Assembly (NCBI GenBank): GCA_949292185.1
Contig: CASEYP010000031.1
Span: forward strand, 62,001-126,000
DNA from: an uncultured bacterium
GTDB taxonomy: Bacteria; Cyanobacteriota; Vampirovibrionia; Gastranaerophilales; Gastranaerophilaceae
Length of the DNA stretch: 64,000 nucleotides
Direction: 5' to 3'
The stretch's first letter is position 1, and every line of letters starts with the position of its first letter. The position numbers and the translations under genes were made by a program. The notes below the pieces were generated by a model. It was given only the letters and a program-made list of their open reading frames with translations, ran no database searches and was not told the origin of the DNA. Below are positions 1,324 through 64,000 of the stretch, piece after piece.

Positions 1324-1340
1324 TGGTATAAAATATTAGT
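1324..1340 (+). promoter_or_regulatory. Extended -10 promoter (TGG-TATAAA) abutting the TIGR02757 start
   Basis: TATAAA lies at 1327-1332, preceded by TGG, with 8 nt to the ATG at 1341. No Shine-Dalgarno sequence precedes that ATG. The promoter probably gives a leaderless or nearly leaderless mRNA and lies just after the stop of the PAP2-like gene. Confidence 0.5.
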
Positions 1341-2090
1341 ATGATTACAAAAAATGAATTAGATAATCTTGTTAAAACTTATGAAACAAAAGATTTCATA
1401 AAAGATGATCCTATACAATTCCCGAACAGATTCAAGAACAAAAAAGATATTGAAATTGCAGGATTTATAGCATCACTTGTAGCTTATGGCAGAAGAGAAC
1501 TTTTTATAAAAAAATTAGAAGAATTATTCTCTATTGCTCAAAATGAACCGCTTAATTTTATCCTAAATTTTGAACCAAAACTTATCGGAAATTTTAATTA
1601 TCGTTTTGGCAAGCCTCAAGATTTTTCAATGATTTTTAATATACTAAAAGAGCTATATCAAAAAGATGGCGGATTGGAAGAACTTTTCAAATACGGTTAT
1701 AATAACCAAGTTGAAAATAATATGTTCATCCCTGTTACTGATTATTTTTACGCAAGAGTAAAAGAAAATGCACAACAAGGTTTTTACTTTATGATACCAA
1801 ATCCTAGAAATGGCGGAGCAATGAAGAGGATGTGTATGTTTTTACGCTGGATGGTAAGGAAAGAACCTGTTGATTTTGGTATTTGGAAATTTATGCCAGC
1901 TTCAGACTTACTTATCCCGTTAGATGTTCATGTTGCAAGGATTTCAAGGCAAATGGGATTATTAACCAGAAATGCAAATGATTTTAAAGCAGTTTTGGAA
2001 TTGACAAATAACCTGAAAAAATTTGACTCACAAGATCCGACAAAATATGACTTTGCAATGTTTGGATACGGAGTCAATAATAAAGTCTAG
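1341..2090 (+). CDS. TIGR02757 family protein (DUF2400)
   Basis: A 249-residue protein of the TIGR02757/DUF2400 family, common in Bacteroidetes and other lineages and of unknown function; it resembles helix-hairpin-helix DNA glycosylases in fold. Family blocks visible are LVAYGRRE near residue 50, NPRNGGAMKR..MFLRWMVRK at about 154-175, the LIPLDVHVARISRQMGL block at about 195, and the C-terminal DPTKYDFAMFGYGV. No Shine-Dalgarno precedes the ATG; a -10-like box sits 8 nt upstream. It follows the PAP2-like gene by 23 bases but may have its own promoter. Confidence 0.85.
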   Translation: MITKNELDNLVKTYETKDFIKDDPIQFPNRFKNKKDIEIAGFIASLVAYGRRELFIKKLEELFSIAQNEPLNFILNFEPKLIGNFNYRFGKPQDFSMIFNILKELYQKDGGLEELFKYGYNNQVENNMFIPVTDYFYARVKENAQQGFYFMIPNPRNGGAMKRMCMFLRWMVRKEPVDFGIWKFMPASDLLIPLDVHVARISRQMGLLTRNANDFKAVLELTNNLKKFDSQDPTKYDFAMFGYGVNNKV

Positions 2091-2148
2091 GACAAATACG
2101 TGACATAATATTTATTATTTATATTAAAACAATTATTATCAAAATAAT

Positions 2149-2559
2149 TAGCATCAGTTAATGAAACGATATCAAGCCGAGTTTTGTTTGAGCGAAAGCG
2201 AGTTAACTCGGCTCAGGTTGAATTTTACTGATGCTATTTGGTCAAATAGTTTTTCTTTCTTTGCTTAGTTTCTTTCTTTTTGCTTATCCAAAAAGAAAGA
2301 AATTAAGTGCGGGTTTGGGTACGCATAGTACCCAATATATAAATATGATAATAAGCAAAATTATCAGTACGTCTCCGACGGGTCCTGCCCGGACAGGGGA
2401 AACTTTTGGTGGCAAAAGTTTCACAAAACCAAGCCCCGAACTTCGCTCGTTAATCAAATGTAAAAGCTCAACTTGTGCGTGCATAACTCGCTTTCGCTCA
2501 AACAAATGCACGCTTGTTATTGTTTCGCTTACATTGATTACTCGCTTTCGTTAGGGGCT
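2149..2559. repeat. Mosaic of nested inverted repeats (palindromic element)
   Basis: Perfect inverted arms: 2149-2158 with 2227-2236 (10 bp) enclosing 2175-2183 with 2205-2213 (9 bp); 2269-2281 with 2290-2302 (13 bp, extendable to about 18 with a G-T pair); 2315-2322 with 2328-2335 (8 bp); 2399-2408 with 2413-2422 (10 bp, loop GTGG); 2432-2437 with 2554-2559 (6 bp) enclosing 2477-2484 with 2506-2513 (8 bp). A 20-base segment at 2186-2205 recurs in exact inverse orientation at 2484-2503. The region is visibly richer in G and C than its flanks. It has the look of a dispersed non-coding palindromic element, but no second copy is in this window. Confidence 0.75.
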
Positions 2560-2611
2560 GAGAGTTTTAAATTTTAATTTTTTAATTTTTAATTCAAATA
2601 ATAAATATTAT

Positions 2612-2644
2612 GTAAAATAAAAGGCGATACATGAAATACCGCCT
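2612..2644 (-). terminator. Rho-independent terminator for the GGDEF regulator
   Basis: AGGCG (2622-2626) pairs with CGCCT (2640-2644); read on the minus strand the second arm is followed by TTTATTTTA. It lies about 70 bases past the regulator's stop codon. Confidence 0.55.
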
Positions 2645-2715
2645 ATTAACCAGATTTACACTATGTAAGTGTTCAGAAAGGATCTTTTTTACATCCTATA
2701 TTTAGGTTGTTATAT

Positions 2716-3588
2716 TTACTCTCCAAGATTTAGGTGAGAGAATTGTACAATTTTATTTTTACCGCGTTTTTTAGCATTGTACAAAGCATGTTCAGCGTAT
2801 CTAATGATAGTATTTGCATCTTCTTCTGTGTCAGGTAGACAAGGGAATGTTGCAATACCACCTGATATTGTAATTGGATGACGTTCTTCCTCACCTGCAG
2901 GAATAAATTCCATTTTTTCAATATCTTTTCTAAATCTTTCTGCAAATAAGAATGCATTATCTTCAGAAGTATTAGGAAGAACTACAATAAATTCTTCATC
3001 ACCATAACGAGTTAAAATATCTTCTTTTCTAATTAATTGTTTCAATTTATCAGCTATAGAACGAAGTAAAACATCTCCCCATTCATAACCATAAATATCA
3101 TTAACAACTTTAAAGAAATCTAAATCAAACAACAACAAAGATAATGGAGTTGTATAACGTTTAGCACGAGAAATTTCTTGTTCCATACGTTCCAACAAAT
3201 ATCTTCTGTTATGTAAACCTGTTAATTCATCAGTTGTAGAAAGAGTTTTCAATTTATCTCTCAACTCTTTAATCTTCAACATATTTCTAACACGAACAAC
3301 CAATTCCTGATTATCAACAGGAGTCTTGATATAATCAAATGCAACTGCTCTAACAGTACAACCTTTAAAAGTTTCACCAATAAATAATATAGGGAACTTA
3401 AATTTTGTAACCATCAAAACATCTTTAATATTAGGAACGCTTTCAATAATAATAACGCCCGGATTTAATGTTTCATAATCTTTAAGATTAGCTGCATTTT
3501 CTAATCTTACATTTGAATCTTCAATAGAAGACACAACATCAGCTATTGCTGAAGAATTTTTATCTGTATATATAACAATATTTTTCAT
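2716..3588 (-). CDS. Response-regulator-like diguanylate cyclase (REC-like + GGDEF)
   Basis: A 290-residue protein. The N-terminal ~115 residues look like a degenerate receiver domain (MKNIVIYTDKN... with VIIIESVP and DYIKTPV, the latter resembling the conserved K-P of receivers). The GGDEF domain runs from about residue 125 (LTGLHNRR) to 280. The active-site signature is GDEEF at 196-200 instead of the usual GG(D/E)EF. An RxxD motif (RKED, 187-190), the usual c-di-GMP inhibitory site, lies five residues before it. Most of the domain is intact (FDLDFFKVVND, ISGGIA, YAKK-like NAKKRGKN). It probably makes c-di-GMP, although the second glycine is replaced. The start has a GAGGATAG ribosome site. 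Confidence 0.85.
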   Translation of the reverse strand: MKNIVIYTDKNSSAIADVVSSIEDSNVRLENAANLKDYETLNPGVIIIESVPNIKDVLMVTKFKFPILFIGETFKGCTVRAVAFDYIKTPVDNQELVVRVRNMLKIKELRDKLKTLSTTDELTGLHNRRYLLERMEQEISRAKRYTTPLSLLLFDLDFFKVVNDIYGYEWGDVLLRSIADKLKQLIRKEDILTRYGDEEFIVVLPNTSEDNAFLFAERFRKDIEKMEFIPAGEEERHPITISGGIATFPCLPDTEEDANTIIRYAEHALYNAKKRGKNKIVQFSHLNLGE

Positions 3589-14132: not shown

Positions 14133-14273
14133 GTTTGAAAAATTCTCAGGATGTGCCGAATTTGATAAAATAATTTCATAATACTCATTTTTATCAATAT
14201 TCACACCCATTGTCTTTACATCACAATATTTTTTCTTCTTTTTATTTAATAATTTCTTATAATCTTGTCCCAT
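14124..14273 (-). CDS. Small 49-residue basic protein, probably leaderless
   Basis: Begins MGQDYKKLLNKKKKKYCDVK and continues TMGVNIDKNEYYEII...NSAHPENFSNKK. There is no Shine-Dalgarno sequence, but TATACT (14285-14280 on the minus strand) sits exactly 6 nt before the ATG, the same arrangement as the starts of mlaE, mutS2 and hemW here. That arrangement and protein-like codons support a real gene. It is convergent with pyk and shares its terminator. No family is recognised. Confidence 0.5.
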   Translation of the reverse strand: MGQDYKKLLNKKKKKYCDVKTMGVNIDKNEYYEIILSNSAHPENFSNKK

Positions 14274-14287
14274 AAAATTAGTATACA
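14274..14287 (-). promoter_or_regulatory. -10 box 6 nt before the 49-aa gene
   Basis: TATACT on the minus strand at 14285-14280, spacer AATTTT, then ATG. It predicts a leaderless transcript. Confidence 0.45.
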
Positions 14288-16094: not shown

Positions 16095-16109
16095 TGTAAA
16101 ATATAAACA
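16095..16109 (+). promoter_or_regulatory. -10 box 7 nt before the 268-aa membrane protein
   Basis: TG followed by TAAAAT (16097-16102), then ATAAACA and the ATG at 16110. No Shine-Dalgarno is present. Confidence 0.4.
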
Positions 16110-16916
16110 ATGAATCAATATTTTAGCTATACAACAACACCACAAATTGATGCAAGATTATACAGAGATATTCTGGACAACGAAGACAAAATAATAAAAA
16201 TCTGCATTATAGTGTTTTTTATACTTATATTCCTCTTTCGAGGATGGATAGATTATTGGTTAAAATTTGGAATTGCAATACCTACAAAATTTGACAACAC
16301 TCCAATAAATACAAATATTGATCCTATTCAGAAAAATTACACTATTGAAGAGCAAAAAAATAAAACATTTATCTACAAATCACTAATTAACGATAAACAA
16401 ATAAAACTTATACCTCAAGCACATTACAAATTATCCGGCTTAACAGTTGCTTATAACTACAACTTTGTATTTAAGCAAAGCTTTTTTGACAGTGCAGCAC
16501 TTTACGACCTTGGTTCAAGTTGGGGGAAACTAGGAGATAGAAATTTTTACGATAGTTATTTTTCAAGCTACAGTGCCAAAACAGAAATAACAGGTTCAAG
16601 AGTTTTATGGACAGAATTCAAAACTCGACAAAGACCAGTAACTATTGAATATGCTACATCACACTGGGCTCATTCACATATAATTCCTGCAAATAGAAAT
16701 ATTATGGCTGCTTTGCTAAAAATAAAAAAATGGGATAATGTTCAAATCGAAGGTGAACTTGTCGATATGGAATATACAAATCCCCGTGGAAAAATTTTTG
16801 AATACTACACAAGTATGTCAAGAACAGATACAGGTTCAAGCGGTGATAGAGGGAACGGTTCTTGCGAGCTTGTATACGTAACAAGTGTTAAAATTGGAAA
16901 TGTAATATATCAATAA
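16110..16916 (+). CDS. Single-pass membrane protein of unknown function
   Basis: 268 residues. The N-terminal ~27 residues are cytoplasmic, a transmembrane helix lies at about 30-45 (KICIIVFFILIFLFRGW), and a large outer domain follows with alternating aromatic/polar beta-like strands. The C-terminus (NVQIEGELVDMEY... SRTDTGSSGDRGNGSCELVYVTSVKIG) resembles the end of bacterial proteins with a conserved R-x-D-T-G...G-x-C-E-x-x-x-V motif whose function I do not know. The lone cysteine in that motif is notable. It is convergent with rnhB with no room for a terminator (stops adjacent at 16916/16917). Confidence 0.75.
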   Translation: MNQYFSYTTTPQIDARLYRDILDNEDKIIKICIIVFFILIFLFRGWIDYWLKFGIAIPTKFDNTPINTNIDPIQKNYTIEEQKNKTFIYKSLINDKQIKLIPQAHYKLSGLTVAYNYNFVFKQSFFDSAALYDLGSSWGKLGDRNFYDSYFSSYSAKTEITGSRVLWTEFKTRQRPVTIEYATSHWAHSHIIPANRNIMAALLKIKKWDNVQIEGELVDMEYTNPRGKIFEYYTSMSRTDTGSSGDRGNGSCELVYVTSVKIGNVIYQ

Positions 16917-17549
16917 CTAAAATAAACTTAACTGTTTTTCAAAATGTTTTTTCAAAAATGAAGGCCTGTGATACTTGCATAACCCAAACTTATCAATTGC
17001 ATTTAGATGTTCTTTAGTTAAATATCCTGCATTATGTTCCCACCCATATTGCGGAAATTCTTGTGCTAATCTATCCATATAAAAATCTCTTTCAACTTTT
17101 GCTAAAATACTTGCAGCCGCAATTGATGCTGATGAGCCATCTCCCTTTATTACATATTTTTGCGGATAGGAATAATTTTTTATCAATTTATTACCATCTA
17201 CCAAAGTAATAAATTTTGATAACTTTGCCTCATTTATAACAGCTTCACAAGATAATTTCATAGCTTTTAATGAAGAATTTAATATATTATTTTTCTCAAT
17301 TTCATCAACCTCAATACAAACCACAGAATTTATTGAATTTTCTTTTATAACATTATATAAAACTTCTCGAACTTTCCTTGATAACTTTTTAGAATCATTT
17401 AATCTGGATAAATCCGATACCAAACCTTTTGTAACCTCAGGAAAATAAACAGCGGCAGCAAAAACTCCACCCGCAGCAGGCCCCCTTCCAGCCTCATCTG
17501 TTCCAACTACAGTCCCATATTTTTTATCAAATTCGAATAAACAATCCAT
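16917..17549 (-). CDS. rnhB: Ribonuclease HII
   Basis: 210 residues. It removes RNA from RNA-DNA hybrids and misincorporated ribonucleotides. The metal-binding signature GTDEAGRGPAAGGVFAAAVYF is at residues ~16-36, with LNDSKKLSRKVRE at ~66 and the catalytic DGN in TLVDGNKL. Length is typical. The start has no Shine-Dalgarno; an extended -10 (TGG-TATAAT) ends 7 nt before the ATG. Confidence 0.95.
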   Translation of the reverse strand: MDCLFEFDKKYGTVVGTDEAGRGPAAGGVFAAAVYFPEVTKGLVSDLSRLNDSKKLSRKVREVLYNVIKENSINSVVCIEVDEIEKNNILNSSLKAMKLSCEAVINEAKLSKFITLVDGNKLIKNYSYPQKYVIKGDGSSASIAAASILAKVERDFYMDRLAQEFPQYGWEHNAGYLTKEHLNAIDKFGLCKYHRPSFLKKHFEKQLSLF

Positions 17550-17565
17550 AAATTGTATTATACCA
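17550..17565 (-). promoter_or_regulatory. Extended -10 promoter abutting rnhB
   Basis: On the minus strand TGG-TATAAT has its hexamer at 17562-17557, spacer ACAATTT, then the ATG at 17549. A perfect TATAAT with an extended TGn element predicts transcription starting at or next to the start codon. Confidence 0.6.
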
Positions 17566-21718: not shown

Positions 21719-21730
21719 TATAATTTTCTT
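21719..21730 (+). promoter_or_regulatory. -10 box 6 nt before the PurD-like gene
   Basis: TATAAT (21719-21724), spacer TTTCTT, then the ATG at 21731. No Shine-Dalgarno precedes it, so the mRNA is probably leaderless. Confidence 0.6.
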
Positions 21731-22972
21731 ATGGATAAAGAGAAAAATATACTAATCATAGGGAATAATGCGGCAGCATCTGCAATTTGTAAAAAGCTTT
21801 ACACGATAGATAATGTAGGGAAAATATTTGTTGCACCAGGGCTCTGCCTAAAATCCGACAAATTTACCTCAGTTGATATTAGAGAAGAAGACTTAACGGG
21901 ACTATTAAAATTTGCCATAGAAAATGACATTTATTTAACTATTCCGACATCTGCTAAAGCTTTAAAAGCTGATGTTGTTTCATTTTTTCAAACAAATGGT
22001 CAAAGAATATTTGGCCCCACAAAAGAAGCCTGCAATATTGCTTTAAATAATAATTTAGGAAAAAAATTTTTATATAAAATTCATGCACAAACTTCAAAAT
22101 TTGGAATTTTTGATAAACTTCAACAAGCAGAAGAATATTTAAGAACTTCAAATTTCCCTGTTACAATCAAATGTAGTGAATATAACCATCTTGATGATAT
22201 GTTAGTATGTCCTACAGTAACAATTGCAAGAGAATTTCTTGATAAGTTATTTTCTCAAAACGAAACAAATATTCTCATTGAAGATTTTACATACGGTCAT
22301 AATTTCACTATTTACTATATAACAGACGGATACAGCGCAATTCCGATATCAATAAATGCAAATTACAAATTTATGGAAGATGGTGATGGCGGAATTTATA
22401 CAAATGGAATGGGGTGCTTTACACCCGATTATAAAATTTCAGAAACTATCAAATCCAGAGTTGGAAATATAATTATTAACACCTTAAAAGCTCTTGATAA
22501 AAAAGGTTCTCCATACGTTGGAATATTAGGAATTGAATGCACCATAACAGGAGAAGATAAATTTTATGTCAATGAATTTAAACCATTTCTTCAAGATTAT
22601 GATGCTTCCGCAGTTTTAAATTCTATAGATGATGATTTAATCAAAATTTTTACAGCCTGCGTTGAAGGATTTTTCTCAGATGAATATGAACAAATTGCCC
22701 AAAACAATTTAAGTTCAGTTTCTGCCTTAGTGTATTCAAGACAGAATAACCAAATTATAAAAGGGCTTGAAAATATTGAAGATATTGAAAATATTGATTT
22801 CATAAATATAAAAGAATCCTCTGATGACAAATTTATAACTCAAAAAGGAAATTCTTTTGTCTTAACCCGTTGTGCTTCAACAATTACAAGAGCAAAAAAT
22901 TATTTATATGAAGACCTTGAACAAATAAAATTTAACGGGATGAAATACCGCAAAGATATTGGTCTAAATTAA
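21731..22972 (+). CDS. Divergent PurD-like ATP-grasp protein
   Basis: 413 residues, with the layout of phosphoribosylamine-glycine ligase: NILIIGNNAAASAICKKLYTIDNVGKIFVAPG (PurD N-domain, but GREHA is replaced by NAAAS), IFGPTKEA (for FGP...A), an ATP-grasp core, and DGDGGIYTNGMGCF corresponding to the DG..TGGMG loop. The usual VRFGDPE metal/ATP motif is replaced by VNEFKPFLQDYD. Either this is a fast-evolving PurD or a paralogue that uses another acceptor; the catalytic changes favour caution. It is leaderless (TATAAT 6 nt before the ATG). Confidence 0.7.
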   Translation: MDKEKNILIIGNNAAASAICKKLYTIDNVGKIFVAPGLCLKSDKFTSVDIREEDLTGLLKFAIENDIYLTIPTSAKALKADVVSFFQTNGQRIFGPTKEACNIALNNNLGKKFLYKIHAQTSKFGIFDKLQQAEEYLRTSNFPVTIKCSEYNHLDDMLVCPTVTIAREFLDKLFSQNETNILIEDFTYGHNFTIYYITDGYSAIPISINANYKFMEDGDGGIYTNGMGCFTPDYKISETIKSRVGNIIINTLKALDKKGSPYVGILGIECTITGEDKFYVNEFKPFLQDYDASAVLNSIDDDLIKIFTACVEGFFSDEYEQIAQNNLSSVSALVYSRQNNQIIKGLENIEDIENIDFINIKESSDDKFITQKGNSFVLTRCASTITRAKNYLYEDLEQIKFNGMKYRKDIGLN

Positions 22973-31687: not shown

Positions 31688-31707
31688 ATCTAAATTTTAT
31701 CATACCA
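31688..31707 (-). promoter_or_regulatory. Promoter abutting nadD
   Basis: Read on the minus strand: TGG-TATGAT (hexamer 31704-31699) and, overlapping, TAAAAT (31699-31694) with exactly six bases TTAGAT before the ATG. No Shine-Dalgarno. Confidence 0.45.
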
Positions 31708-31727: not shown

Positions 31728-32645
31728 TTAAAATAATCCGCAACTTAAATAATGATCACCACAATCAGGAATAATAGTTACAATATTTTTACCAAAATTT
31801 TCGTCACGTTTAGAAAGTTCAATAGCAGCCCAAACATTCGCACCACCTGAAATTCCTGACAAAACCCCTTCCTTTTTAGGCAACTCTTTTGTTACAGAAA
31901 TTGCATCTTCATCTTTTACAGGAATAATTTCATCTGTCAAACTTGCATCATAATTTCCGGGAACAAAATTTGCCCCAATACCTTGAAGTTTATGAGCCCC
32001 TGCATTTTTACCACCTAAAACTTGAGAATTGTATGGCTCAACTGCAACAATTTTAATTTTAGGATTTTTATTTTTCAAATTTTTTCCAACCCCTGACAAA
32101 GTTCCCCCTGTTCCAACTCCTGACACAAAAATATCAACACACCCGTCAGTATCTTTCCAGATTTCTTCTGATGTTGTTAAAATATGAGCCTTTGGATTTG
32201 AAGGATTATCAAATTGTGAGGGGATAAATGAATTTTTATATACATTTTTATGTAAATCAAATGCCTTATCTACAGCACCTTGCATACCTTTATCTGCAGG
32301 TGTTAAAACAAGTTCTGCGCCATAAGCTCTTAATAACATTCTACGTTCCATACTCATAGATTCAGGCATTGTAAGGATAAGTTTATAACCATTGATTGCA
32401 CAAATCATAGCTAACCCTATACCTGTATTTCCACTTGTTGGTTCTATTATCACAGTATCTTGATTTATTTTTCCGTCATTTTGAGCATCCAATATCATTT
32501 GCAAAGCTGCCCTATCTTTTATTGAATTTGCAGGGTTAAAATATTCAAGTTTTAAATAAATATTAGCACCTCCGGTATTTAACTTATTTAACTTTACCAT
32601 TGGAGTTTTTCCTATTAATTCAATTAAATTATTTGCAATATTCAT
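31728..32645 (-). CDS. cysK: Cysteine synthase A (O-acetylserine sulfhydrylase)
   Basis: 305 residues from the ATG at 32645, which has GGGGGAAT upstream; the in-frame ATG at 32687 has no ribosome site. PLP enzyme: the lysine of SIKDRAALQM (~42), PTSGNTGIGLAMICAINGYK (asparagine loop, ~71), SGVGTGGTLSGVGKNLKN (phosphate-binding glycine loop, ~176) and SGISGGANVWAA are all intact. It makes cysteine from O-acetylserine and sulfide. It stands alone between nadD and a prepilin. Confidence 0.95.
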   Translation of the reverse strand: MNIANNLIELIGKTPMVKLNKLNTGGANIYLKLEYFNPANSIKDRAALQMILDAQNDGKINQDTVIIEPTSGNTGIGLAMICAINGYKLILTMPESMSMERRMLLRAYGAELVLTPADKGMQGAVDKAFDLHKNVYKNSFIPSQFDNPSNPKAHILTTSEEIWKDTDGCVDIFVSGVGTGGTLSGVGKNLKNKNPKIKIVAVEPYNSQVLGGKNAGAHKLQGIGANFVPGNYDASLTDEIIPVKDEDAISVTKELPKKEGVLSGISGGANVWAAIELSKRDENFGKNIVTIIPDCGDHYLSCGLF

Positions 32646-32733
32646 AAAACATTCCCCCACTTTTATCCAATAACAAAATAATACCACAAAACCAATATTC
32701 TAAAAATTTATAATTATACTTTGTATTATGTAT

Positions 32734-35489: not shown

Positions 35490-36299
35490 TTAAAAGAAAA
35501 ATAAAATCGCAAATATCATATCCCAAACAACAATAGCAATAAATGACCAAACTACTGCTTTCGTAGTCGCAAGACCTACCCCCTTAGCTCCACCTGAGGC
35601 AAAATACCCGCAAGTGCAACTTATAAGAGAAATTGTAGCTCCAAAAACTATTGCTTTTAGAATACATACGCTCAAGTCTTTCATATATAAACCAAGCCAC
35701 GCAGAATCAAAATATGCTCTATAAGTTAATCCTGCAAACATATCTGAAGTAACAGCACCCAACAAAACACCAACAATAGATGCTAAAATTACAACAAACG
35801 GCATCATTATGGCACCGGATAAAACTCTTGGCACAAATAAATACCTAATAGAATCTACTCCCAAAACATCAATTGCATCAATCTGTTCTGTAACTCTCAT
35901 TGTAGCAAGTTCAGAAGCTAAAGATGAACCGATCATAGAAGTTATAGCAAAACCTGACATAATTGCTCCGACTTCACGAACAATTAATATAGTCATCAAT
36001 AACCCTACAAAATTTCCGCCACCTTGCTTTACCATTTCATGCGCAACTTGAGAAGCCACAATTATAGAGGTCATACCAACAATAGATAATGTTATAGGAA
36101 GTGAACTTACACCAAATCTATCACATTGTGAGATTAATTCATTCCATGAAATCTCACCCCTTAATATACATTTCAAAACATGAAAACCAAGTTGAGCAAT
36201 GTGCCCCAAAGTATCCAAAAAATCTGCAAAAGTAACCCAAAAATGAGAAAAAACCTTATATGTAGCAGATTGCTTTAAATATTTCTGTAAAGTTATCAT
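35490..36299 (-). CDS. mlaE: MlaE-like ABC transporter permease
   Basis: 269 residues. Inner-membrane permease of the MlaE/YrbE family that moves phospholipids between membranes. The start chosen is the ATG at 36299 (MITLQKYLKQSATYKVF) because TATAAT ends 6 nt before it; the more upstream codon would lie inside that promoter. Family segments: SSLPITLSIVGMTSIIVASQVAHEMVKQGGGNFVG, VREVGAIMSGFAITSMIGSSLASELATMRVTEQIDAIDVLGVD and VPRVLSGAIMMP. It is first in an operon with mlaF. Confidence 0.92.
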   Translation of the reverse strand: MITLQKYLKQSATYKVFSHFWVTFADFLDTLGHIAQLGFHVLKCILRGEISWNELISQCDRFGVSSLPITLSIVGMTSIIVASQVAHEMVKQGGGNFVGLLMTILIVREVGAIMSGFAITSMIGSSLASELATMRVTEQIDAIDVLGVDSIRYLFVPRVLSGAIMMPFVVILASIVGVLLGAVTSDMFAGLTYRAYFDSAWLGLYMKDLSVCILKAIVFGATISLISCTCGYFASGGAKGVGLATTKAVVWSFIAIVVWDMIFAILFFF

Positions 36300-36314
36300 A
36301 AAGGAATTATACCA
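36300..36314 (-). promoter_or_regulatory. Extended -10 promoter exactly 6 nt before mlaE
   Basis: Minus strand: TGG-TATAAT (hexamer 36311-36306), spacer TCCTTT, then the ATG at 36299. It is a textbook case of the arrangement repeated across this window. Confidence 0.65.
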
Positions 36315-37386: not shown

Positions 37387-39156
37387 TTAAGATAATTTTC
37401 TTATTAATTCTTGAGCTTCTTCACAATCTGCAAATGTATCAGTAATTTTTTCAGCACATTTTAAAGCTTCATCTTTATTACCAAGCTTTTCATAACATTT
37501 TGCCAAATTTAATAATACATTGATATTCAATGGAGCTTTTTCTCGCATATTTTCAAATATTGTTTTTGCCTGTTCGTAATTTCCCAATTCGAAATAACAC
37601 AAGCCTAATAGATTTTGAACATCCGGCATTTTTTCAAGTTCGTAAGCCTTGACTAAATACATTTTGGCAGTTTCATAATCACCTGCCAAATGATAAATTC
37701 TTCCGGCAATAAATAGCAAAAATGCAGAATCTGAACACTTTTTCAAAACTTTATCGATTTGTTCTTTAGCTTGATCTATCTGTTTTAAATGAGTTTTATT
37801 TAAAGCTGAAAAAGCTAAGCCGTTTGGATTTTCAGGATCAATTGATATTGCTCGTTGATATAATTCATCTGCTTTTTCAAAATCAGATGTTGCATGAAAA
37901 TAATTTGCATACTCTAAAACTATAGAATAATTATTCGGATCATCCTTATAAGCTTGGCTAAATTCACCCTTGGCATAATCAAATAATCGTTTATTTAAAT
38001 AAATTACACCCAAATCCTTATGTGCCAATGCAAATTCCGGTTTTAATTTACAAACTTTTTTCAATATTTGTTCTGCTCTATCTAAATCACCTGTTTTTAC
38101 ACACAAAATTGCCAATTCATAATACAACTCGTATGATGTTGAACCTTGCTTTATTATTTTTTCAAAAATTTCTTTTGCATTTGCTAACTGACCTGTTTTT
38201 ATATAAATACCTGCAAGTTTTTTCAATATATTTGAAGCCTTTGGAGTCAACATTACTAACTGCTTTAACAAAGATATTGCAATTTCATATTCTCCAATAA
38301 CCTGATAACAACAAGCCAAATTGTATTTATAATTTGTTTTTTGCGGATAAGCAGAAGCCAAATATTTATAATGCTCAATAGCTTCTTTTATCTTTCCGGC
38401 TTTTACTTCTGAAAGTGCCCAAGCAACTATATAACTATCTTCATTCGGTTCACATTCATGAGCTTTTGCAAAATATTCACAAGCCTCAGCATGTTTATCT
38501 TGAAGTTGCAAAATTGACGCGATATTAAAATATGTCAACGAATCCTTATCATCAATTTCCAAGGCTTTTTGATATGTTTCATAAGCCTTATCCAAATTCC
38601 CGATAGTTAAATATGAAGTTCCCAAATTGTTATACAGTTGAAGATTATCCGGATTTAATTCTATAGCTTTTTCTATATATTCAACACTCTCATCAAACTT
38701 TTTACCTGCCATACAAGCAGTTCCTAATATATAATATATAGAATAATCATCACTTGTATATTCCAAAGCTTTTTTAGCTGTTTCTATTGCATTATCAAAC
38801 TCTTCTGACTTAATATAAACTATAGAAAGACTTTTATAGGCATCCACATATTCAGGACGTAACTCAAGAACTTTTAAATATGCGTGTTTTGCTTCTATAA
38901 GTTCACCCATATTGTCATAGCAACATCCCAAATAATACCAGCATAAAGCATCATCCTGACGATACTTTATAACTTCTTCCAGTATATTTCTTGCATTATG
39001 ATAATTTTCAAGATTAACTTCACACAAAGCCAATAACCTTTGTGCATCTATATCTGAAGGCTCTTTTTCAATAATTTCTAAAATTAAAGTTTTAGCATCT
39101 TCATACTTTGATGAATCAATTAATTCATATATTTTATCAATATCCTTATCTTCCAT
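37387..39156 (-). CDS. Large tetratricopeptide-repeat protein
   Basis: 589 residues from the ATG at 39156 (MEDKDIDKIYELI). Almost the whole length is TPR repeats, roughly 15-16 units of 34 residues with the W/L-G-Y-A-P pattern (ALCWYYLGCCYDNMGELIEAKHAYLKVLELRPEYVDAYK; NLQLYNNLGTSYLTIGNLDKAYETYQKALEIDDKD). No signal peptide, membrane segment or extra catalytic domain is present, so it should be a cytoplasmic superhelical scaffold. The start has no ribosome site; TGG-TATAAT ends 9 nt before it. Partners unknown. Confidence 0.9.
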   Translation of the reverse strand: MEDKDIDKIYELIDSSKYEDAKTLILEIIEKEPSDIDAQRLLALCEVNLENYHNARNILEEVIKYRQDDALCWYYLGCCYDNMGELIEAKHAYLKVLELRPEYVDAYKSLSIVYIKSEEFDNAIETAKKALEYTSDDYSIYYILGTACMAGKKFDESVEYIEKAIELNPDNLQLYNNLGTSYLTIGNLDKAYETYQKALEIDDKDSLTYFNIASILQLQDKHAEACEYFAKAHECEPNEDSYIVAWALSEVKAGKIKEAIEHYKYLASAYPQKTNYKYNLACCYQVIGEYEIAISLLKQLVMLTPKASNILKKLAGIYIKTGQLANAKEIFEKIIKQGSTSYELYYELAILCVKTGDLDRAEQILKKVCKLKPEFALAHKDLGVIYLNKRLFDYAKGEFSQAYKDDPNNYSIVLEYANYFHATSDFEKADELYQRAISIDPENPNGLAFSALNKTHLKQIDQAKEQIDKVLKKCSDSAFLLFIAGRIYHLAGDYETAKMYLVKAYELEKMPDVQNLLGLCYFELGNYEQAKTIFENMREKAPLNINVLLNLAKCYEKLGNKDEALKCAEKITDTFADCEEAQELIRKLS

Positions 39157-39174
39157 AGCAATAAAATTATACCA
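39157..39174 (-). promoter_or_regulatory. Extended -10 promoter 9 nt before the TPR gene
   Basis: Minus strand TGG-TATAAT (hexamer 39171-39166), spacer TTTATTGCT, then the ATG at 39156. No Shine-Dalgarno. Confidence 0.55.
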
Positions 39175-39231
39175 CAGTGACACTATATGGCAAATACCAA
39201 GATTGTATGAGAATAACTTTGGGCAAATATA

Positions 39232-45432: not shown

Positions 45433-46245
45433 TTAACCTTTTCTACCACCAAATCTATTTCTCAAGTTATATAAATCATTTTGCGTCTTGTTAAACTCAT
45501 CTTTAGAAAACAATTCACCGATACTTGCGGAATAAACATTTGATCCTAAACTCACTGTTATCCAAGATGGGTTTATTTCTACAACTTTATATTCTTGACC
45601 GATAATTTTATCGCCTTGACGAACTAAATAATCTTTATCATCAACATTAATAATTGCTGAAGGATTTGCTTGATTATACATAATACCAACAACTTTTGTA
45701 CGAGTAATTTTTGCTGCTGCTGCAGTTGATGGAGCCATACTTGTCGGAGGAACCGGCAAATTAAAGCTATATGGACTTATATCGTCAGGCTGACGAATTA
45801 CAACATTTTTTAATTTTTCTAACTCTGCAACTTTTGCATTATGACGATTAGCTTCAGCTATAGCGGAATTTCTAGCCTGTTCGAAAGCTGCAATTTCACC
45901 AGATGGCATGAATGGATCCGCCCTCCCTATAGAGGTAACATCATAAGATACCATAGAACTAGCTTGATCAGATTCAACATCGATCTCTGAAGTGTTTTCT
46001 GCCGGAACATTTACTTCTTCCTTTGCTTCCGGAGCCGGCTGATTTGCTGCTGGAACTGCTGTATTTTCAGATGTTGCATTATTATTTCCCCCTATATTTT
46101 GCAACATTCCACAACCTCCGGCAATAATACCTACAGAAAACACAACAACAAGAAGTGTTAATACTAACTTCCCGCGCTTACTGAATGTATTATCTACCCA
46201 GTTCTCATTCCTATAATAATTTGTGTTCACGTTATTCCCACCCAT
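45433..46245 (-). CDS. PilP/GspC-like inner-membrane lipoprotein-type protein
   Basis: 270 residues with a single N-terminal transmembrane helix (KLVLTLLVVVFSVGIIAGGC, ~24-43; the cysteine gives a possible lipid site), an Ala/Pro/Glu-rich linker (~50-95), then a small beta domain whose pattern matches PilP/GspC HR domains (IGRADPFMPSGE... KITRTKVVGIMYNQANPSAIINVDDKDYLVRQGDKI..EYKVVEINPSWITVSL). It probably connects the inner-membrane platform with the secretin next to it. A GTG 15 bases downstream with GGGTGGGAA upstream is an alternative start. Confidence 0.75.
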   Translation of the reverse strand: MGGNNVNTNYYRNENWVDNTFSKRGKLVLTLLVVVFSVGIIAGGCGMLQNIGGNNNATSENTAVPAANQPAPEAKEEVNVPAENTSEIDVESDQASSMVSYDVTSIGRADPFMPSGEIAAFEQARNSAIAEANRHNAKVAELEKLKNVVIRQPDDISPYSFNLPVPPTSMAPSTAAAAKITRTKVVGIMYNQANPSAIINVDDKDYLVRQGDKIIGQEYKVVEINPSWITVSLGSNVYSASIGELFSKDEFNKTQNDLYNLRNRFGGRKG

Positions 46246-46258
46246 CTAGTTATTTATA
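46246..46258 (-). promoter_or_regulatory. -10 box 7 nt before the PilP-like gene
   Basis: Minus strand TATAAA (46258-46253), spacer TAACTAG, then the ATG at 46245. It heads the secretion operon unless the GTG start is used. Confidence 0.45.
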
Positions 46259-46995: not shown

Positions 46996-48259
46996 GCTCT
47001 TTTACTCCTATTGTCCTTGCCAATGCAACTTCATAATCTTTAGGGGCTTTTTCTAATTTTAAATATACATCAGCATTGGTATTTGCAACATCTATAGAAT
47101 TTCCTTTTTCATCAAGAATTTCTATAACTTTTGTTACAAATTGTTCTTTCGGAGTTATAATTTCTACTTCATCATTTAACAAAACTTTATTTTTAATTTT
47201 TACAAAATATAAATCATCAACTCTATCTGATGCAAAATCTATATCTGAAAATTTCTTTTTACCTCTGAATTCAAACAAAAAATCTGCTCCGGCTAAGCCT
47301 TTTGATATGTCATAACTATAACTGTCAGGAGTATTTTCACCCAATGCAAAACCTGTAGTATAACCTCTATTACCAACTTTTTTCAATTCTTGATAATATT
47401 TTTCCATATCAGCATTTGGATTTGATAATATTTCATCAATAGCATTTCTATAAGTTTTTGCAACTGCTGATACATAGTATAAACTTTTCGTTCTGCCTTC
47501 AACTTTAAATGAATCTACACCGGCATCGATCATTTCTTTCAAATGTTTTACTAAGCACAAATCTTTTGGACTCAAAATATGAGAACCACGCTCATCTTGA
47601 TTTATTTCATAATATTGACCAGGACGAGTACTTTCTACTAATTTATAACTCCATCTGCATGGCTGAGAACAATTACCATGATTTGCTTTTCTTTCACCGT
47701 TTGTAAAATAATCACTTAATAAACATCTGCCCGAAAATGATACGCATTGTGAACCATGCACAAAACATTCTATTTCCATATCAGGAACTTGTTTTTTTAT
47801 TTCAGCAATTTCAGGAATTGAAAGTTCTCTTGCCAATACAACTCTTTTTGCTCCCATATCTTGCCAAAATTTTACACACTCATAGTTTAAAATATTTGTT
47901 TGAGTACTTATATGCAAATCTGTATCAGGCATATATTTTTTTAATAATCGCAAAATGCCAAAATCACTTACTAATATTGCATCCGGGTTTGCGTCTTTTA
48001 TAATATCCATGCAACCTTCCAAATGCTTTATATCAGAATTAAATGCAAATATATTTAATGTCATATAAGCCTTAGCTCCTAAACTATGAGCCAAATCTAT
48101 TGCACGTTTTAAATTCTCAAGAGTAATAATTTCACCCTTTCTCATAGCCCTTAAGCTAAAATCAACAACGCCTAAATATACAGCATCTGCACCATATCTT
48201 ACGGCATATTTTAATTTTTCCAAATTGCCCGCAGGCATCAATAATTCAACATTTCGCAT
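46985..48259 (-). CDS. U32-family peptidase (TrhP/RlhA-like RNA hydroxylase family)
   Basis: 424 residues. N-terminal ELLMPAGNLEKLKYAVRYGADAVYLG and the four-cysteine cluster motif SGRCLLSDYF...GNCSQPCRWSYKL (~170-207) define the U32 group, whose TrhP/RlhA members use prephenate or related compounds to hydroxylate RNA with an iron-sulfur cluster. It ends with a C-terminal beta domain (~330-415). Leaderless start: TATGAT ends 6 nt before the ATG. It is coupled to yqeG downstream. Confidence 0.9.
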   Translation of the reverse strand: MRNVELLMPAGNLEKLKYAVRYGADAVYLGVVDFSLRAMRKGEIITLENLKRAIDLAHSLGAKAYMTLNIFAFNSDIKHLEGCMDIIKDANPDAILVSDFGILRLLKKYMPDTDLHISTQTNILNYECVKFWQDMGAKRVVLARELSIPEIAEIKKQVPDMEIECFVHGSQCVSFSGRCLLSDYFTNGERKANHGNCSQPCRWSYKLVESTRPGQYYEINQDERGSHILSPKDLCLVKHLKEMIDAGVDSFKVEGRTKSLYYVSAVAKTYRNAIDEILSNPNADMEKYYQELKKVGNRGYTTGFALGENTPDSYSYDISKGLAGADFLFEFRGKKKFSDIDFASDRVDDLYFVKIKNKVLLNDEVEIITPKEQFVTKVIEILDEKGNSIDVANTNADVYLKLEKAPKDYEVALARTIGVKEHVS

Positions 48260-48271
48260 AATTCAATCATA
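48260..48271 (-). promoter_or_regulatory. -10 box exactly 6 nt before the U32 gene
   Basis: Minus strand TATGAT (48271-48266), spacer TGAATT, then the ATG at 48259. Confidence 0.55.
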
Positions 48272-48573: not shown

Positions 48574-49879
48574 CGTATGTAAGCCTGTAATATTTATGTA
48601 GCTTGTAAATCATAATTGCACATAAAAACACGGCTGATGCAACCAATCCTAACCAAAAACCGACTAAATGTAATTTAAATTTAAACGCTAAAATATATCC
48701 TAACGGAATTGACACACACCAATATGCAACAAAATTTGCGAATAATACAATATTAGTTTGTTTTATCCCTTTGCAAATACCTGCAAGCGCAATCTGTAAT
48801 CCGTCAAAAATTTGAAATACAGATAGAATATACATAACAGGAATAGCAATAGCAAATAAATTTTTATCAACAGTAAATATTCCAACAATTGCCTTTGGAA
48901 AACTTGAAAAAATTAATGCACTACACATCATAAATAAAACAGACATAACAATACCGACAAAAGAATATTTCTTTAAATCCGGTAAATTTTTAGCACCATT
49001 TGCAAACCCGACTTTAACAGCAATAGCATTAGATATTGCAAAAGGAACCATAAAGGATATTGTTGTTAATGTGCAAACCAAATTTTGTGCCGCTGCAAAT
49101 ACTCCGGACACTCTTCCCATAATAATCGCTATACTGTTAAATGCAACAAATTCAACAAATACTGCCATTGATATAGGAAATCCTATATTTAATAAATTTT
49201 TATAATAACCTTTTTCATGATAATTTTTAAAAGACATATTAATATAACAATATATTAACAATGCAAATCCCATAAAATATCTAACAAGCAAACTTGCTAT
49301 AGCTAAACCAATAACACCTAGTGAAGGAATAGGACCAAAGCCAAATACCAATATTATATTTAATATTACATTTAGAAAAACACAAATCATTGTTACGATA
49401 TTCGGAAACAAAACAATCTCAAAAGCTTGTAAAAACTCTTTTAAACAAGCATGCAAATATGCACCAAAAATACTCAATGCAGTAATCAACATATAATCTT
49501 GTATTGGTTTAACTAATTTATCTTCAAAACCTATCTTTGGAATTATCGGAACAAATAAGACTGTAAATATTGCAGTTATAGTTGCCAAAATCATTGCAAA
49601 TCTTATTGACGGATAAAAATATTTCTTTATAGATTTTCTTTCTCCCCTATAATTTGACAACAAAGGAGATATCCCTGAAACTAAACCATACCCAAACGTA
49701 ACAATACAATTAACAATAGAAGTTGCAATACTAATTGCTGCAAAAGTATCAGTAGAATGTCTTCCAGCAATTATAACATCACCAACCCCAATTAAAATAA
49801 AACCAAGGTTTCCCATGATTATTGGGGCAGCTATTGTTAATAATTCCCTTACATAATATTTGATATCATGTTTGCTCAT
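48557..49879 (-). CDS. MATE-family efflux transporter
   Basis: 440 residues with twelve hydrophobic helices and the MATE layout of two repeated halves (LTIAAPIIMGNLGFILIGVGDVIIAGRHS; LNIGFPISMAVFVEFVAFNSIAIIMGRVSGVFAAAQN). Such transporters export drugs or metabolites using Na+ or H+ gradients. Start without Shine-Dalgarno: TATGAT lies exactly 6 nt before the ATG. The substrate cannot be inferred. Confidence 0.92.
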   Translation of the reverse strand: MSKHDIKYYVRELLTIAAPIIMGNLGFILIGVGDVIIAGRHSTDTFAAISIATSIVNCIVTFGYGLVSGISPLLSNYRGERKSIKKYFYPSIRFAMILATITAIFTVLFVPIIPKIGFEDKLVKPIQDYMLITALSIFGAYLHACLKEFLQAFEIVLFPNIVTMICVFLNVILNIILVFGFGPIPSLGVIGLAIASLLVRYFMGFALLIYCYINMSFKNYHEKGYYKNLLNIGFPISMAVFVEFVAFNSIAIIMGRVSGVFAAAQNLVCTLTTISFMVPFAISNAIAVKVGFANGAKNLPDLKKYSFVGIVMSVLFMMCSALIFSSFPKAIVGIFTVDKNLFAIAIPVMYILSVFQIFDGLQIALAGICKGIKQTNIVLFANFVAYWCVSIPLGYILAFKFKLHLVGFWLGLVASAVFLCAIMIYKLHKYYRLTYEKQEL

Positions 49880-49891
49880 AATTAAATCATA
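49880..49891 (-). promoter_or_regulatory. -10 box exactly 6 nt before the MATE gene
   Basis: Minus strand TATGAT (49891-49886), spacer TTAATT, then the ATG at 49879. Confidence 0.55.
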
Positions 49892-59068: not shown

Positions 59069-60157
59069 TTATTCCAAAAAATCTGCTAATATAACATTAC
59101 TCACGAGTATACCTTGTGTAGTTAAGGCATATCCATTTTGGGTAGCACAAATAAGATTTAATTTTAAATATTTATCTAAAATAGATTTATATTTTTCTTT
59201 AAAATCAATTCCAAAATCCGAATTTATTTTAGATACATCTATGCCTTTTACAATTCTAAAACCTAAAAATATTGCTTCTTCAAGTCTTTCTTGATTAGAT
59301 AATATTTTAGATTCTTTTTTTGTATAGCAATCTGAGATATAATCTTCAAGCGAAGATTTATTTGCATACCTGATACCATCTTTATAACCATGGGCTCCAG
59401 CACCAAATCCGTAATATTCATTATCAAGCCAATAATTCAAATTATGCTTTGACTCAAAGCCTCTCCTGCAAAAATTACTAACTTCATAATGATTAAAATT
59501 TAACCCCTTTAACAAATCTATTGCACCTAAATACATATCAGCCTGCATATCATCATCAGGTAAATTTTCAGGCATATTATTATAAAAATAACACCCCGGT
59601 TCAATTTTCAATCCATAAAAAGAAATATGTTGAATACCTAAAGATATAGCTTTTTGTATATCGGAATTAAAAATTTCAATAGTCTGATTTGGCAAACCAT
59701 ATATCAAATCCAAACTTATATTTTTAAACCCGGCATCTTGAGCAACCTTAACACTATTTATAACTTGTCCTGCATTATGCCTTCGGTTTATAAGTTTTAA
59801 TATAGATTCATTGAAAGTCTGACACCCTAAACTTATTCTGTTTATACCTAAATCATACAAACCTCTGAAATAATCATAACTGCAATCATCAGGATTTGCT
59901 TCCAGAGTTATTTCTGTATTACTGCTAAATTTAAAAATCCGCAAAATATTTTCCAATTCTGAAATTTCAAGAAGCGACGGAGTTCCGCCGCCAAAATATA
60001 TGGTATTCAGCATTTCTTCTTCATAATAATTATTGATTTCTTTAGCTAATATTTTTAAATATTCTTTTTTTAACTCCAACTTAGGATACGAAACAAATGA
60101 ACAATAATTACATTTTGACCTGCAAAACGGAATATGAATATAAGCACTTCTAACCAT
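59069..60157 (-). CDS. hemW: HemW-like radical SAM protein (heme chaperone family)
   Basis: 362 residues. CRSKCNYCSF (CxxxCxxC, ~12-21), IYFGGGTPSLLEI (~56-68), ITLEANPDD, RISLGCQTFNESIL and SLDLIYGLPNQT fit HemW, the oxygen-independent coproporphyrinogen oxidase relative that acts as a heme-trafficking protein. Its stop lies one base from the convergent TPM gene. Leaderless start: TATAAT 6 nt before the ATG. Confidence 0.93.
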   Translation of the reverse strand: MVRSAYIHIPFCRSKCNYCSFVSYPKLELKKEYLKILAKEINNYYEEEMLNTIYFGGGTPSLLEISELENILRIFKFSSNTEITLEANPDDCSYDYFRGLYDLGINRISLGCQTFNESILKLINRRHNAGQVINSVKVAQDAGFKNISLDLIYGLPNQTIEIFNSDIQKAISLGIQHISFYGLKIEPGCYFYNNMPENLPDDDMQADMYLGAIDLLKGLNFNHYEVSNFCRRGFESKHNLNYWLDNEYYGFGAGAHGYKDGIRYANKSSLEDYISDCYTKKESKILSNQERLEEAIFLGFRIVKGIDVSKINSDFGIDFKEKYKSILDKYLKLNLICATQNGYALTTQGILVSNVILADFLE

Positions 60158-60169
60158 AAATCAATTATA
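60158..60169 (-). promoter_or_regulatory. -10 box exactly 6 nt before hemW
   Basis: Minus strand TATAAT (60169-60164), spacer TGATTT, then the ATG at 60157. No Shine-Dalgarno. Confidence 0.65.
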
Positions 60170-61733: not shown

Positions 61734-61739
61734 AAAATA

Positions 61740-61776
61740 AAAACCTGCCGGAGTTTTTATTCGGCAGGTTTTTATT
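61740..61776 (+). terminator. Terminator after the frameshifted gene
   Basis: AAAACCTGCCG (61740-61750) pairs with CGGCAGGTTT (61762-61771), followed by TTTATTTTA. Confidence 0.85.
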
Positions 61777-61807
61777 TTACATTACATAAAATTACTTTAA
61801 CCTTTTG

Positions 61808-61822
61808 TGCTATAGTAAATTT
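61808..61822 (+). promoter_or_regulatory. Extended -10 promoter exactly 6 nt before mutS2
   Basis: TGC-TATAGT (hexamer 61811-61816), spacer AAATTT, then the ATG at 61823. No Shine-Dalgarno. Confidence 0.6.
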
Positions 61823-64000
61823 ATGGATATCACATCAAAAAGTTATACGACTCTAGAATTTGATAAAGTTAAAGAAGAACTTTCAAAGTTTGCTAAATTT
61901 AAGCAGAGCAAAACTCTATGTCTTTGTGCTGCTGCATATAATGAGCCTGAGAAAATTCAGCATCAAATCAATCTGACAAGAGAAGCAAAAAAAATTCTTG
62001 ATTTTGCAAAAGATACCCCGACAGAATTTATTGCTGAAATTCAAAAAATCAAAAATAATTTAGCTGTCACTTATTTATCAGAAGAAGAATTGAACGATAT
62101 TGCAAAAACAATGCGTTCTTCAAGGCTTCTGAAAAGATTTATCATTGAAAATTCAGATGATGGCAGCTTATTAAAACAGGCCGCTGCAAATCTTATATCT
62201 GAAAAAGAACTTGAAGACAGAATTTTTAATACATTTGATGAAAGTTTAAATATAAAACAAAATGCAACTCCTGAACTAAAGGGGCTGTATTCTTCTCTGC
62301 GTGACACAGAACAAAATATCAGAGATCAAATATCATCTTTGCTAAACAATCCTAATTTTTCAAAATATTTGCAAGAAAATATTTATACCCAAAGAGATGA
62401 CAGAATTGTATTTCAAGTAATGGCATCTCATAAAACAAAAATCCCTGGAATTGTCCACGATGTTTCATCATCAGCCAAAACTTTTTATATAGAACCTGCT
62501 CAGCTTGTTCCTCTAAATAACAAAATTAGAGAAGTTAAATCAAAAATTCACGCAGAATGTATAAAAATTCTTGTTGAATTAACTGATATGATAAAAATTC
62601 ATATGGGCGAATTGGTAATATGTGAAAATGTAATGGCAGAAATAGATTTTCACTTTGCAAAAGCTCGTTATGCCGTAAAATTACAAGCTTCAGAACCTGA
62701 ATTAACCGATGATAAATACATTTATTTTGAAAATATGAAACACCCGCTACTTTTAAAAGTTAGCGAAAACGTTGTCTCAAACAACTTTGAAATAGGCAAA
62801 GATTATAAATCAATGATTATCACAGGTTCAAACACAGGCGGTAAAACAGTAACCCTAAAAACTATCGGTTTATTTATACTTATGGCAAAAGCTGGAATGT
62901 TTTTACCTTGCACTTATGCAAAATTATACCCGTTTGAAAAAGTTTTTGCAGATATTGGAGATTCTCAAAGTATTCTGCAAAGTTTATCCACTTTTTCATC
63001 TCATATGACAAATATAATCGAAATTATTAAACAAAGTGATGAAAATACATTTGTTCTTTTAGACGAAATTTGTGCGGGAACTGATCCTGTTGAAGGTGCA
63101 GTTTTAGCGCAAGGAATATTAGAAAAACTTGCCCAGAAAAACGTAACCTCTGTAATCACAACCCACTACGGAGAATTAAAAGCATTAGAATATTCAAATA
63201 AATTTTTCAAAAATGCCTCAGTAGAATTTAATACAGAAACTCTAAAACCGACATACAAACTTTTAATCGGGATTCCAGGTTTGAGTAATGCTATATCAAT
63301 CGCGTCAAACCTCGGGTTAGATAAAGATATAGTAGAAAAAGCAAAAAATACCTTAATTACACAAAAAGACCCAACTGTTGCCGTAGTTGAAAAATTGCAA
63401 GAAACTCACCAAGCATTATCTAAAAATCTTGAAAAAGCACAAGAATTAAAAGAATCTTCACTATCAATAAAAAAAGAATACGAAGAAAATCTTAATAAAG
63501 TAAAAAAAGATAAGAAAAAAACAATCAAACATATAAAAGACAAATTTGATACCGAAATGCTTGAAGCTAGAGGCGAAATAAAGCGTATTTTAGATGAATT
63601 AAGAAAAGAAAAATCTGAAAAAATAGCACGCAGAGCATATTCAAGACTTGCAAAACTAGAAAGCGACTTCAGAGATGAACTTGATAAGGTTACAGACAAA
63701 CAAAAATATCTTGAAATAGATTGGGATAAAGTTCAAATTGGTGATACCCTAATGCTTAAAAATCTGCACCAAAAAGTTACAGTTCTTTCACTCCCTGACA
63801 AAAACAAAAGATTATTTGTCGACCTTGGAAATATTAAAATGAAAGTTAAAAAAGACGAATTAGCTATTCTTGATGAAAACTACAAAGAGCCAAATAAAAT
63901 CAAAATTCCTGGAACTTCATTTAAGAAATTTGAATTACGACGTCTTGAAATGTCCCAAACACTTGATCTTAGAGGTTATAGAGCAGAAGAAGCCTTAGAT
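61823..64000 (+). CDS. mutS2: MutS2 endonuclease/ATPase, 3' end cut by window edge
   Basis: 726 residues are visible. Core and clamp regions (~1-300), ATPase with Walker A ITGSNTGGKTVTLKT (~333-347; Ser replaces the usual Pro), ABC-signature region GDSQSILQSLSTFSSHM and Walker B FVLLDEICAGTDPVEG (~410-425), HYGE switch, a long coiled coil (~515-640), a KOW-like insert (~645-700) and the start of the Smr nuclease domain (LDLRGYRAEEALD). MutS2 suppresses homologous recombination and acts on collided ribosomes in some bacteria. Leaderless start. Strong terminator upstream. Confidence 0.95.
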   Translation, partial: MDITSKSYTTLEFDKVKEELSKFAKFKQSKTLCLCAAAYNEPEKIQHQINLTREAKKILDFAKDTPTEFIAEIQKIKNNLAVTYLSEEELNDIAKTMRSSRLLKRFIIENSDDGSLLKQAAANLISEKELEDRIFNTFDESLNIKQNATPELKGLYSSLRDTEQNIRDQISSLLNNPNFSKYLQENIYTQRDDRIVFQVMASHKTKIPGIVHDVSSSAKTFYIEPAQLVPLNNKIREVKSKIHAECIKILVELTDMIKIHMGELVICENVMAEIDFHFAKARYAVKLQASEPELTDDKYIYFENMKHPLLLKVSENVVSNNFEIGKDYKSMIITGSNTGGKTVTLKTIGLFILMAKAGMFLPCTYAKLYPFEKVFADIGDSQSILQSLSTFSSHMTNIIEIIKQSDENTFVLLDEICAGTDPVEGAVLAQGILEKLAQKNVTSVITTHYGELKALEYSNKFFKNASVEFNTETLKPTYKLLIGIPGLSNAISIASNLGLDKDIVEKAKNTLITQKDPTVAVVEKLQETHQALSKNLEKAQELKESSLSIKKEYEENLNKVKKDKKKTIKHIKDKFDTEMLEARGEIKRILDELRKEKSEKIARRAYSRLAKLESDFRDELDKVTDKQKYLEIDWDKVQIGDTLMLKNLHQKVTVLSLPDKNKRLFVDLGNIKMKVKKDELAILDENYKEPNKIKIPGTSFKKFELRRLEMSQTLDLRGYRAEEALD

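Follow-up and report, generated by a model that had tools for sequence, protein, structure and literature searches.

We examined a stretch of 64,000 nucleotides, referred to here as the window, which corresponds to positions 62,001-126,000 of contig CASEYP010000031.1 in a genome assembly of 1,888,546 bases (33 contigs). The host belongs to Candidatus Gastranaerophilales (Melainabacteria) and is a gut bacterium, a non-photosynthetic relative of Cyanobacteria with a GC content of about 31%. The feature under study is a hexamer resembling a -10 promoter box that recurs immediately upstream of ATG start codons lacking a Shine-Dalgarno (SD) sequence, an arrangement that would give rise to leaderless mRNAs.

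Boxes and genes in the window

The initial annotation had listed 13 such sites, and all 13 were present on re-reading the window. At eight of these the hexamer is separated from the ATG by exactly six nucleotides, as had been described. On the forward strand these are a -10-like TATAAT at 21719..21724 ahead of the ATG at 21731 (a PurD-like ATP-grasp protein) and an extended -10 element, TGC-TATAGT, with its hexamer at 61811..61816 ahead of the ATG at 61823 (mutS2). On the reverse strand they are TGA-TAAAAT (extended -10; hexamer 31694..31699) for the ATG at 31687 (nadD), TGG-TATAAT (extended -10; 36306..36311) for that at 36299 (an MlaE-family permease), TATGAT (-10-like; 48266..48271) for that at 48259 (U32 family, TrhP-like), TGT-TATGAT (extended -10; 49886..49891) for that at 49879 (a MATE transporter), TATAAT (-10-like; 60164..60169) for that at 60157 (hemW), and TATACT (14280..14285) for that at 14273. 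The group to which spacings of 7-9 nt had been assigned stood in part. Seven nucleotides separate the extended element TGG-TATAAT (17557..17562, reverse strand) from the ATG of rnhB at 17549, a TAAAAT (16097..16102, forward strand; a weak case) from the ATG at 16110, and the weak hexamer TATAAA (46253..46258, reverse strand) from the ATG at 46245, and nine separate TGG-TATAAT (extended -10; 39166..39171, reverse strand) from the ATG at 39156, which opens a gene for a TPR protein with a predicted 3-nt leader, GCU. The site at 1341 (TIGR02757 family gene, forward strand) did not fit this group, being better described by a -10-like TAAAAT at 1329..1334, with a 6-nt spacing, than by TATAAA.

The nadD, hemW, rnhB, MATE transporter and TIGR02757 proteins each passed at least one curated family cut-off, as did MutS2, and the MlaE-family, PurD-like and U32 proteins did not reach theirs. 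Three of the 13 sites are doubtful as gene starts: that at 14273 because it opens an open reading frame (ORF) of only 49 codons, and those at 16110 and 46245 because their products have no NCBIfam family match. Seven of the 55 called ATG genes of the window have a box at the 6-nt spacing (binomial p 1.7e-5 at the shuffled rate), a count that excludes 14273 and mutS2, which are not among the called genes (the mutS2 ORF runs off the window). Two mechanically assigned GTG starts, those of the ORFs at 31728-32687 and 37387-39183, lie upstream of the ATGs at 32645 and 39156; these ATGs are preceded by a purine-rich site or a -10 box and look like likelier starts than the GTGs. Rfam and tRNA scans of the window gave no matches.

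A peak six nucleotides upstream of the start codon

The initial annotation had proposed counting hexamers against their distance to gene starts, and we did so in 741 kb of the host genome taken in stretches, the window included (39% of the genome; about 9 kb reads N). ORFs were called by codon usage, ignoring the hexamer. A hexamer was scored as TATAAT with T1, A2 and T6 fixed and one mismatch allowed in the middle, and d denotes the number of nucleotides between hexamer and ATG. Genes with less than 80 nt upstream and non-ATG starts were left out of the counts; the sample has 19 GTG/TTG genes, one of them at d = 6. A box at d = 6 was present in 50 of 562 ATG genes, against 8.3 +/- 2.7 expected from 100 dinucleotide shuffles, and the same genes gave only 3, 9, 2 and 17 boxes at d = 5, 7, 8 and 9, respectively. 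After correction for background, about 7% of genes carry the strict hexamer at d = 6, and about 9% any TANNNT.

The peak falls almost entirely on genes lacking an SD sequence by our test, which make up 235 of the 562. The 50 genes at d = 6 include 49 of them, and TANNNT occurs at this distance in 64 of the 235. Among 343 first genes of presumed transcription units, 34 have the box at d = 6, and all of these belong to the 144 first genes without SD. Neither the peak nor its near-confinement to genes without SD depends on the window: once it was removed (leaving 677 kb, about 9 kb of it N), d = 6 was found in 43 of 507 genes (42/213 without SD versus 1/294 with SD), compared to 2-16 genes at each of the remaining distances between 2 and 13 nt. 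The sharp 6-nt peak that had been anticipated for genes without SD is therefore seen in the host genome, outside the window, and in the relatives described below.

Two artefacts were considered. Chance matches in an AT-rich genome were rejected on the basis of the shuffles, internal Met codons and a test that does not use gene calls. At 3551 internal Met codons there was no peak at six (33 matches at d = 6, 36 at d = 7 and 37 at d = 10), and pairs of hexamer and ATG separated by six nucleotides opened at least 100 codons in 80 of 257 cases, compared to 7-20% at other distances between 3 and 20 and 15.7% of all ATGs. A bias in start calling was rejected as well, since the caller is blind to the hexamer and the gene-call-free test is concordant.

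To this sample we added stretches of seven relatives from the same family, the HemW loci L002-L024 (not all of known family) and 29 MlaE loci. The resulting pool comprised 1440 ATG genes, mostly-N loci and 8 of 1486 genes that were duplicates having been excluded. A box at d = 6 was present in 146 of 630 genes without SD and in 2 of 810 with SD (Fisher p 4e-54, a value that ignores relatedness); put the other way, 146 of the 148 genes at d = 6 lack an SD. The HemW and MlaE loci had been selected through genes carrying the box; the random stretches alone gave d = 6 in 98 of 490 genes without SD. Outside the family, the stretches sampled from the order, class and phylum contained too few genes to profile each genome firmly. 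In genes with SD, TGnTATAAT was found two times between d = 0 and d = 16 and regularly from d = 17 onward. No 16S rRNA was found in the host's own assembly; in two genomes of the same genus (L083, L088) and four of the order, the anti-SD CCTCC of the 16S rRNA is intact (CACCTCCTTT). With SD genes alongside box-bearing genes without SD, and because the anti-SD is intact in relatives, the coexistence of two start modes, also part of the initial annotation, is upheld.

Probable promoter character, conservation and competing explanations

In several respects the hexamers resemble the -10 box of sigma-70 promoters. TGn precedes them in 19 of 49 cases at d = 6, compared to 63 of 527 distant matches and 323 of 3855 matches in coding sequence. 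When the 49 d = 6 genes of the host genome lacking SD were aligned, they showed a TTATGn-TATAAT trend with T at position -1 in 92%, versus 50% of SD genes; in the pool, T occupies this position in 124 of 146 genes at d = 6, as opposed to 253 of 484 other genes without SD and 405 of 810 with SD. In the d = 6 genes of the family's random stretches, TTG lies 23 nt before the hexamer, which corresponds to a 17-nt spacer from a -35 element, in 11 of 98 cases, against 0-5 at the other 24 positions.

The spacing is also kept between orthologues of two window genes while the flanks diverge. Among 29 family orthologues of MlaE that are 62-94% identical to the window protein (the host's own locus, L219, is not counted), the box lies at d = 6 in 24, at 7 and at 8 in two each, and at 9 in one. 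Within these 24 loci, which were picked for the box, most columns outside it vary, and T at -17 occurs in 23. For HemW the conservation extends to only 10 of the 23 closest loci (L002-L024, 49-86% identical). At several of the HemW loci without a box, the upstream stretch appears to be coding. In Bacillota, HemW had the box at none of 35 loci and an SD at 18; at 13 of these 35, no candidate ATG lay close to where the gene should begin.

The initial annotation placed the +1 at the A of the ATG, and the peak, TGn, T at -1 and orthologue conservation fit this placement, with the -35 distance fitting in relatives only. We regard it as highly probable that these data are best explained by leaderless mRNAs whose first base is the A of the ATG, together with a minor class carrying a 3-nt leader. 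Judging from sequence, we infer that the hexamers act as promoters, and the proposed course of events is as follows. In about 7-9% of the sampled host genes, and in many genes of the family, a sigma-70-type promoter would have its -10 hexamer ending 6 nt before the ATG, so that RNA polymerase would start at the A (position +7 after the hexamer) and produce a leaderless mRNA without SD, which would be translated by direct recognition of its 5'-terminal AUG. In a minority of genes the hexamer lies 7 nt upstream, with a predicted start at +8, and in another minority 9 nt upstream, where the predicted start is a purine (frequently G) at +7 and would yield a 3-nt leader such as GUU-AUG. Other genes keep an SD, their extended -10 boxes usually lying at least 17 nt upstream.

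Several observations weigh against this model. A strict hexamer at d = 6 is missing in 484 of the 630 pooled genes without SD, and weaker boxes or another explanation are therefore needed for these. In the sample of one family genome (G061), the box stood at d = 6 in just 2 of 77 genes, although the motif count of this genome is ordinary (39 matches). In MlaE, the commonest base at -1 is A (11/24) rather than T, and one of the 29 orthologues was flagged as bearing an SD. For HemW, a box between 4 and 11 nt from the ATG is absent at 12 of the 23 closest loci, including one where the gene start is missing. Finally, the -35 signal was not seen in the host sample, where TTG at 23 nt occurs in 2 of 49 d = 6 genes, and the -35 claim consequently rests on the relatives.

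We give very little credence to explaining the hexamers by chance in AT-rich sequence, or as an A/U-rich element of low structure that helps ribosomes load on mRNAs with ordinary leaders. The low GC content and the large number of ATG genes without SD are what such an idea would draw on, but a peak confined to one position goes beyond composition, internal Met codons do not have it, and a promoter would account for TGn, T at -1, the conservation and, in relatives, the -35 distance. That the boxes are real promoters of a secondary, internal kind, the main mRNA starting further upstream, is also quite unlikely, if slightly less so. In its favour, three of the 50 genes with a box at d = 6 have an upstream gene on the same strand no more than 25 nt away, and nine more have one at 26-60 nt, but the 34 that come first in a presumed transcription unit, with four more at stretch ends, argue against it. 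So does the lack of SD in all but one of the 50, because a longer mRNA of such genes would have no ribosome site.

A further alternative, which is not exclusive of leaderless starts at the A, is that transcription begins 1-3 nt before the ATG in many d = 6 genes too. Starts this close to the ATG are suggested by two other classes of spacing. In the pool, 34 genes have a box at d = 9, and 28 of these show a purine at +7 (G in 11 cases), as would be expected if the RNA started there and carried a 3-nt leader. Only 7 of the 34 are also at d = 6, leaving 27 that are not, and the class is hence not mainly an echo of the d = 6 peak. An apparent peak at d = 11 was discounted as such an echo (20 of 26 also at d = 6). 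In 43 family genomes the pattern TGNTAWAAT-N5-TRYT-ATG, in which the purine is demanded, had 54 matches (33 with G) and its reversed form had 6 (summed by hand); boxes at d = 7 exceeded their control 411 to 85. At d = 6 itself, the prevalence of T immediately before the ATG speaks against such short leaders. T is a poor base for starting transcription. We see the extension of 1-3 nt leaders to many d = 6 genes as unlikely.

It is tempting to speculate that initiation in the family prefers 5' ends either 0 or 3 nt from the AUG, with a second, mostly G-starting class of 3-nt leaders (GUU/GCU-AUG), although we are doubtful of this. The reasoning is that spacing in the family is centred on six, unlike the even use of 6, 7 and 8 nt in another family of the class (f10, below). 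If true, the preference would suggest a ribosome that senses the 5' end of the mRNA in register with triplets. The excess of boxes at d = 7, a real minority spacing in the family, argues against the idea in its strict form.

With regard to the translation machinery, IF3 was found in 58 of 59 genomes of the phylum, the host included, and S1-like proteins gave matches in 60 of 60 genomes of the class. The host has two long ones (G000:C17:20312-21295 and G000:C7:138295-139332, with open frames of 373 and 365 amino acids), and each of 12 family genomes has two strong S1-like proteins; none of these proteins, those of the host included, reaches the rpsA cut-off. We also compared with NCBIfam 20 of the 42 d = 6 proteins that the host encodes outside the window (the first ten chosen as conserved-looking, with an E limit of 1e-60; 1e-15 for the rest). 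Those above cut-off were DnaE, DnaG, Era, MnmG, guanylate kinase (gmk), UvrC, YifB, RlmD, an AgcS-type carrier, a YbgC/FadM thioesterase, a DUF167 protein and acetolactate synthase. Core genes (dnaE, dnaG, era, mnmG, gmk, uvrC) are thus among the predicted users of the mode, which does not imply enrichment.

Distribution in the lineage and comparison with known systems

Whole genomes were searched for TGNTAWAAT-N5-TATG, which corresponds to d = 6, with a spacer widened to 12 as control. The 104 genomes of the family had 3339 matches versus 322 (median 32.5 versus 3), each of the 104 exceeding its control; one genus (g95, 7 genomes) was low, at 8-18 matches per genome. For the 126 genomes that belong to the phylum but not to the class, the totals were 206 versus 197. 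A single genome (G128) contributed 30 of these 197 control matches, and without it the totals were 204 versus 167; most of its control matches among those listed are one repeated sequence, probably a mobile element, that inflates the control. Five genomes of one family outside the class (f18: G101, G105, G110, G119, G124) had 20 matches versus 3, and a leaderless-type mode may be present there too.

Spacing was compared in a sample of the class, using reversed controls. At d = 6, 7 and 8, the 43 family genomes had 1509, 411 and 203 matches (controls 87, 85 and 107), the nine genomes of f10 (G042, G048, G054, G060, G066, G071, G077, G082, G087) had 65, 68 and 53 (controls 3, 15 and 7), and 11 genomes of f12 had 46, 31 and 39 (controls 19, 20 and 12). 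The 38 genomes of f8, summed at d = 6 only, had 18 versus 18. The f10 family is a second lineage of the class with extended -10 boxes near the ATG, in a relaxed form with the three spacings about equal. Given the excess over controls in f10 and f12, the mode would not be confined to the host's family, where the preference for 6 nt is strongest. One family genome (G163) had 22 matches at d = 8; 12 of these are identical and 5 more nearly so, and they probably belong to a repeat or mobile element that is present in several copies and has a box-ATG start.

Our literature search found no paper joining "leaderless" and "Melainabacteria", its broader searches being weak evidence of absence, no earlier report for this group and no mapped 5' ends from it, although a mention in the phylum figure of Zhong et al. 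2025 (PMC12340547) is possible. Leaderless mRNAs have been mapped in Cyanobacteria, with 48 mRNAs in Synechocystis 6714 (PMC5386190) and 19 start sites in Synechococcus UTEX 2973 (PMC6091082) according to the passages cited, and Nakagawa 2017, in the part we draw on, suspected leaderless or S1 modes in this phylum. Cyanobacteria would thus share leaderless mRNAs with the present group, but few of them, and the 126 genomes outside the class had no clear overall motif excess. According to Zheng et al. 2011 (PMC3160421, in the portion cited), the sequences of many Cyanobacteria point to neither SD-led nor leaderless starts, which leaves their start mode largely without explanation. A sister lineage in which leaderless-type promoters are common and sharply placed, and in which the anti-SD is intact, would offer many genomes for tracing gain and loss of the mode. 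In addition, start codons in these gut genomes could be annotated with the help of the -10/ATG signal, and the promoters of uncultured members could be read from sequence.

There is precedent for such an arrangement. Zheng et al. 2011 (PMC3160421) described TA-led leaderless genes in Actinobacteria and in low-GC Firmicutes such as Lactococcus. The first T of their TANNNT signal lies about 12 bp upstream, equivalent to a 6-nt spacing, and several low-GC genomes have a TG peak, as here; the excerpt on which we rely names no cyanobacterial group among the 207 genomes with leaderless genes. In Deinococcus-Thermus, the promoter role of -10-adjacent boxes of leaderless genes is backed by reporter and mutation tests in D. 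radiodurans (Zhong et al. 2025, PMC12340547). As far as the cited sections of that study go, a TANNNT box lies about 6-7 bp before the ORF, spacing matters and genes with ribosome-binding sites coexist, much as in the host genome. The two systems differ in that TACACT is the commonest box there and about 30% of ORFs are concerned, whereas here it is TATAAT with TGn and about 7-9% of genes, with a spacing centred on 6, T at -1 and a low-GC sister lineage of Cyanobacteria as the setting. The leaderless mode itself is therefore known from elsewhere (Deinococcota, Actinobacteria), and what appears to be new is its predicted use in this lineage, the unusually narrow spacing and the putative subclass with 3-nt leaders.

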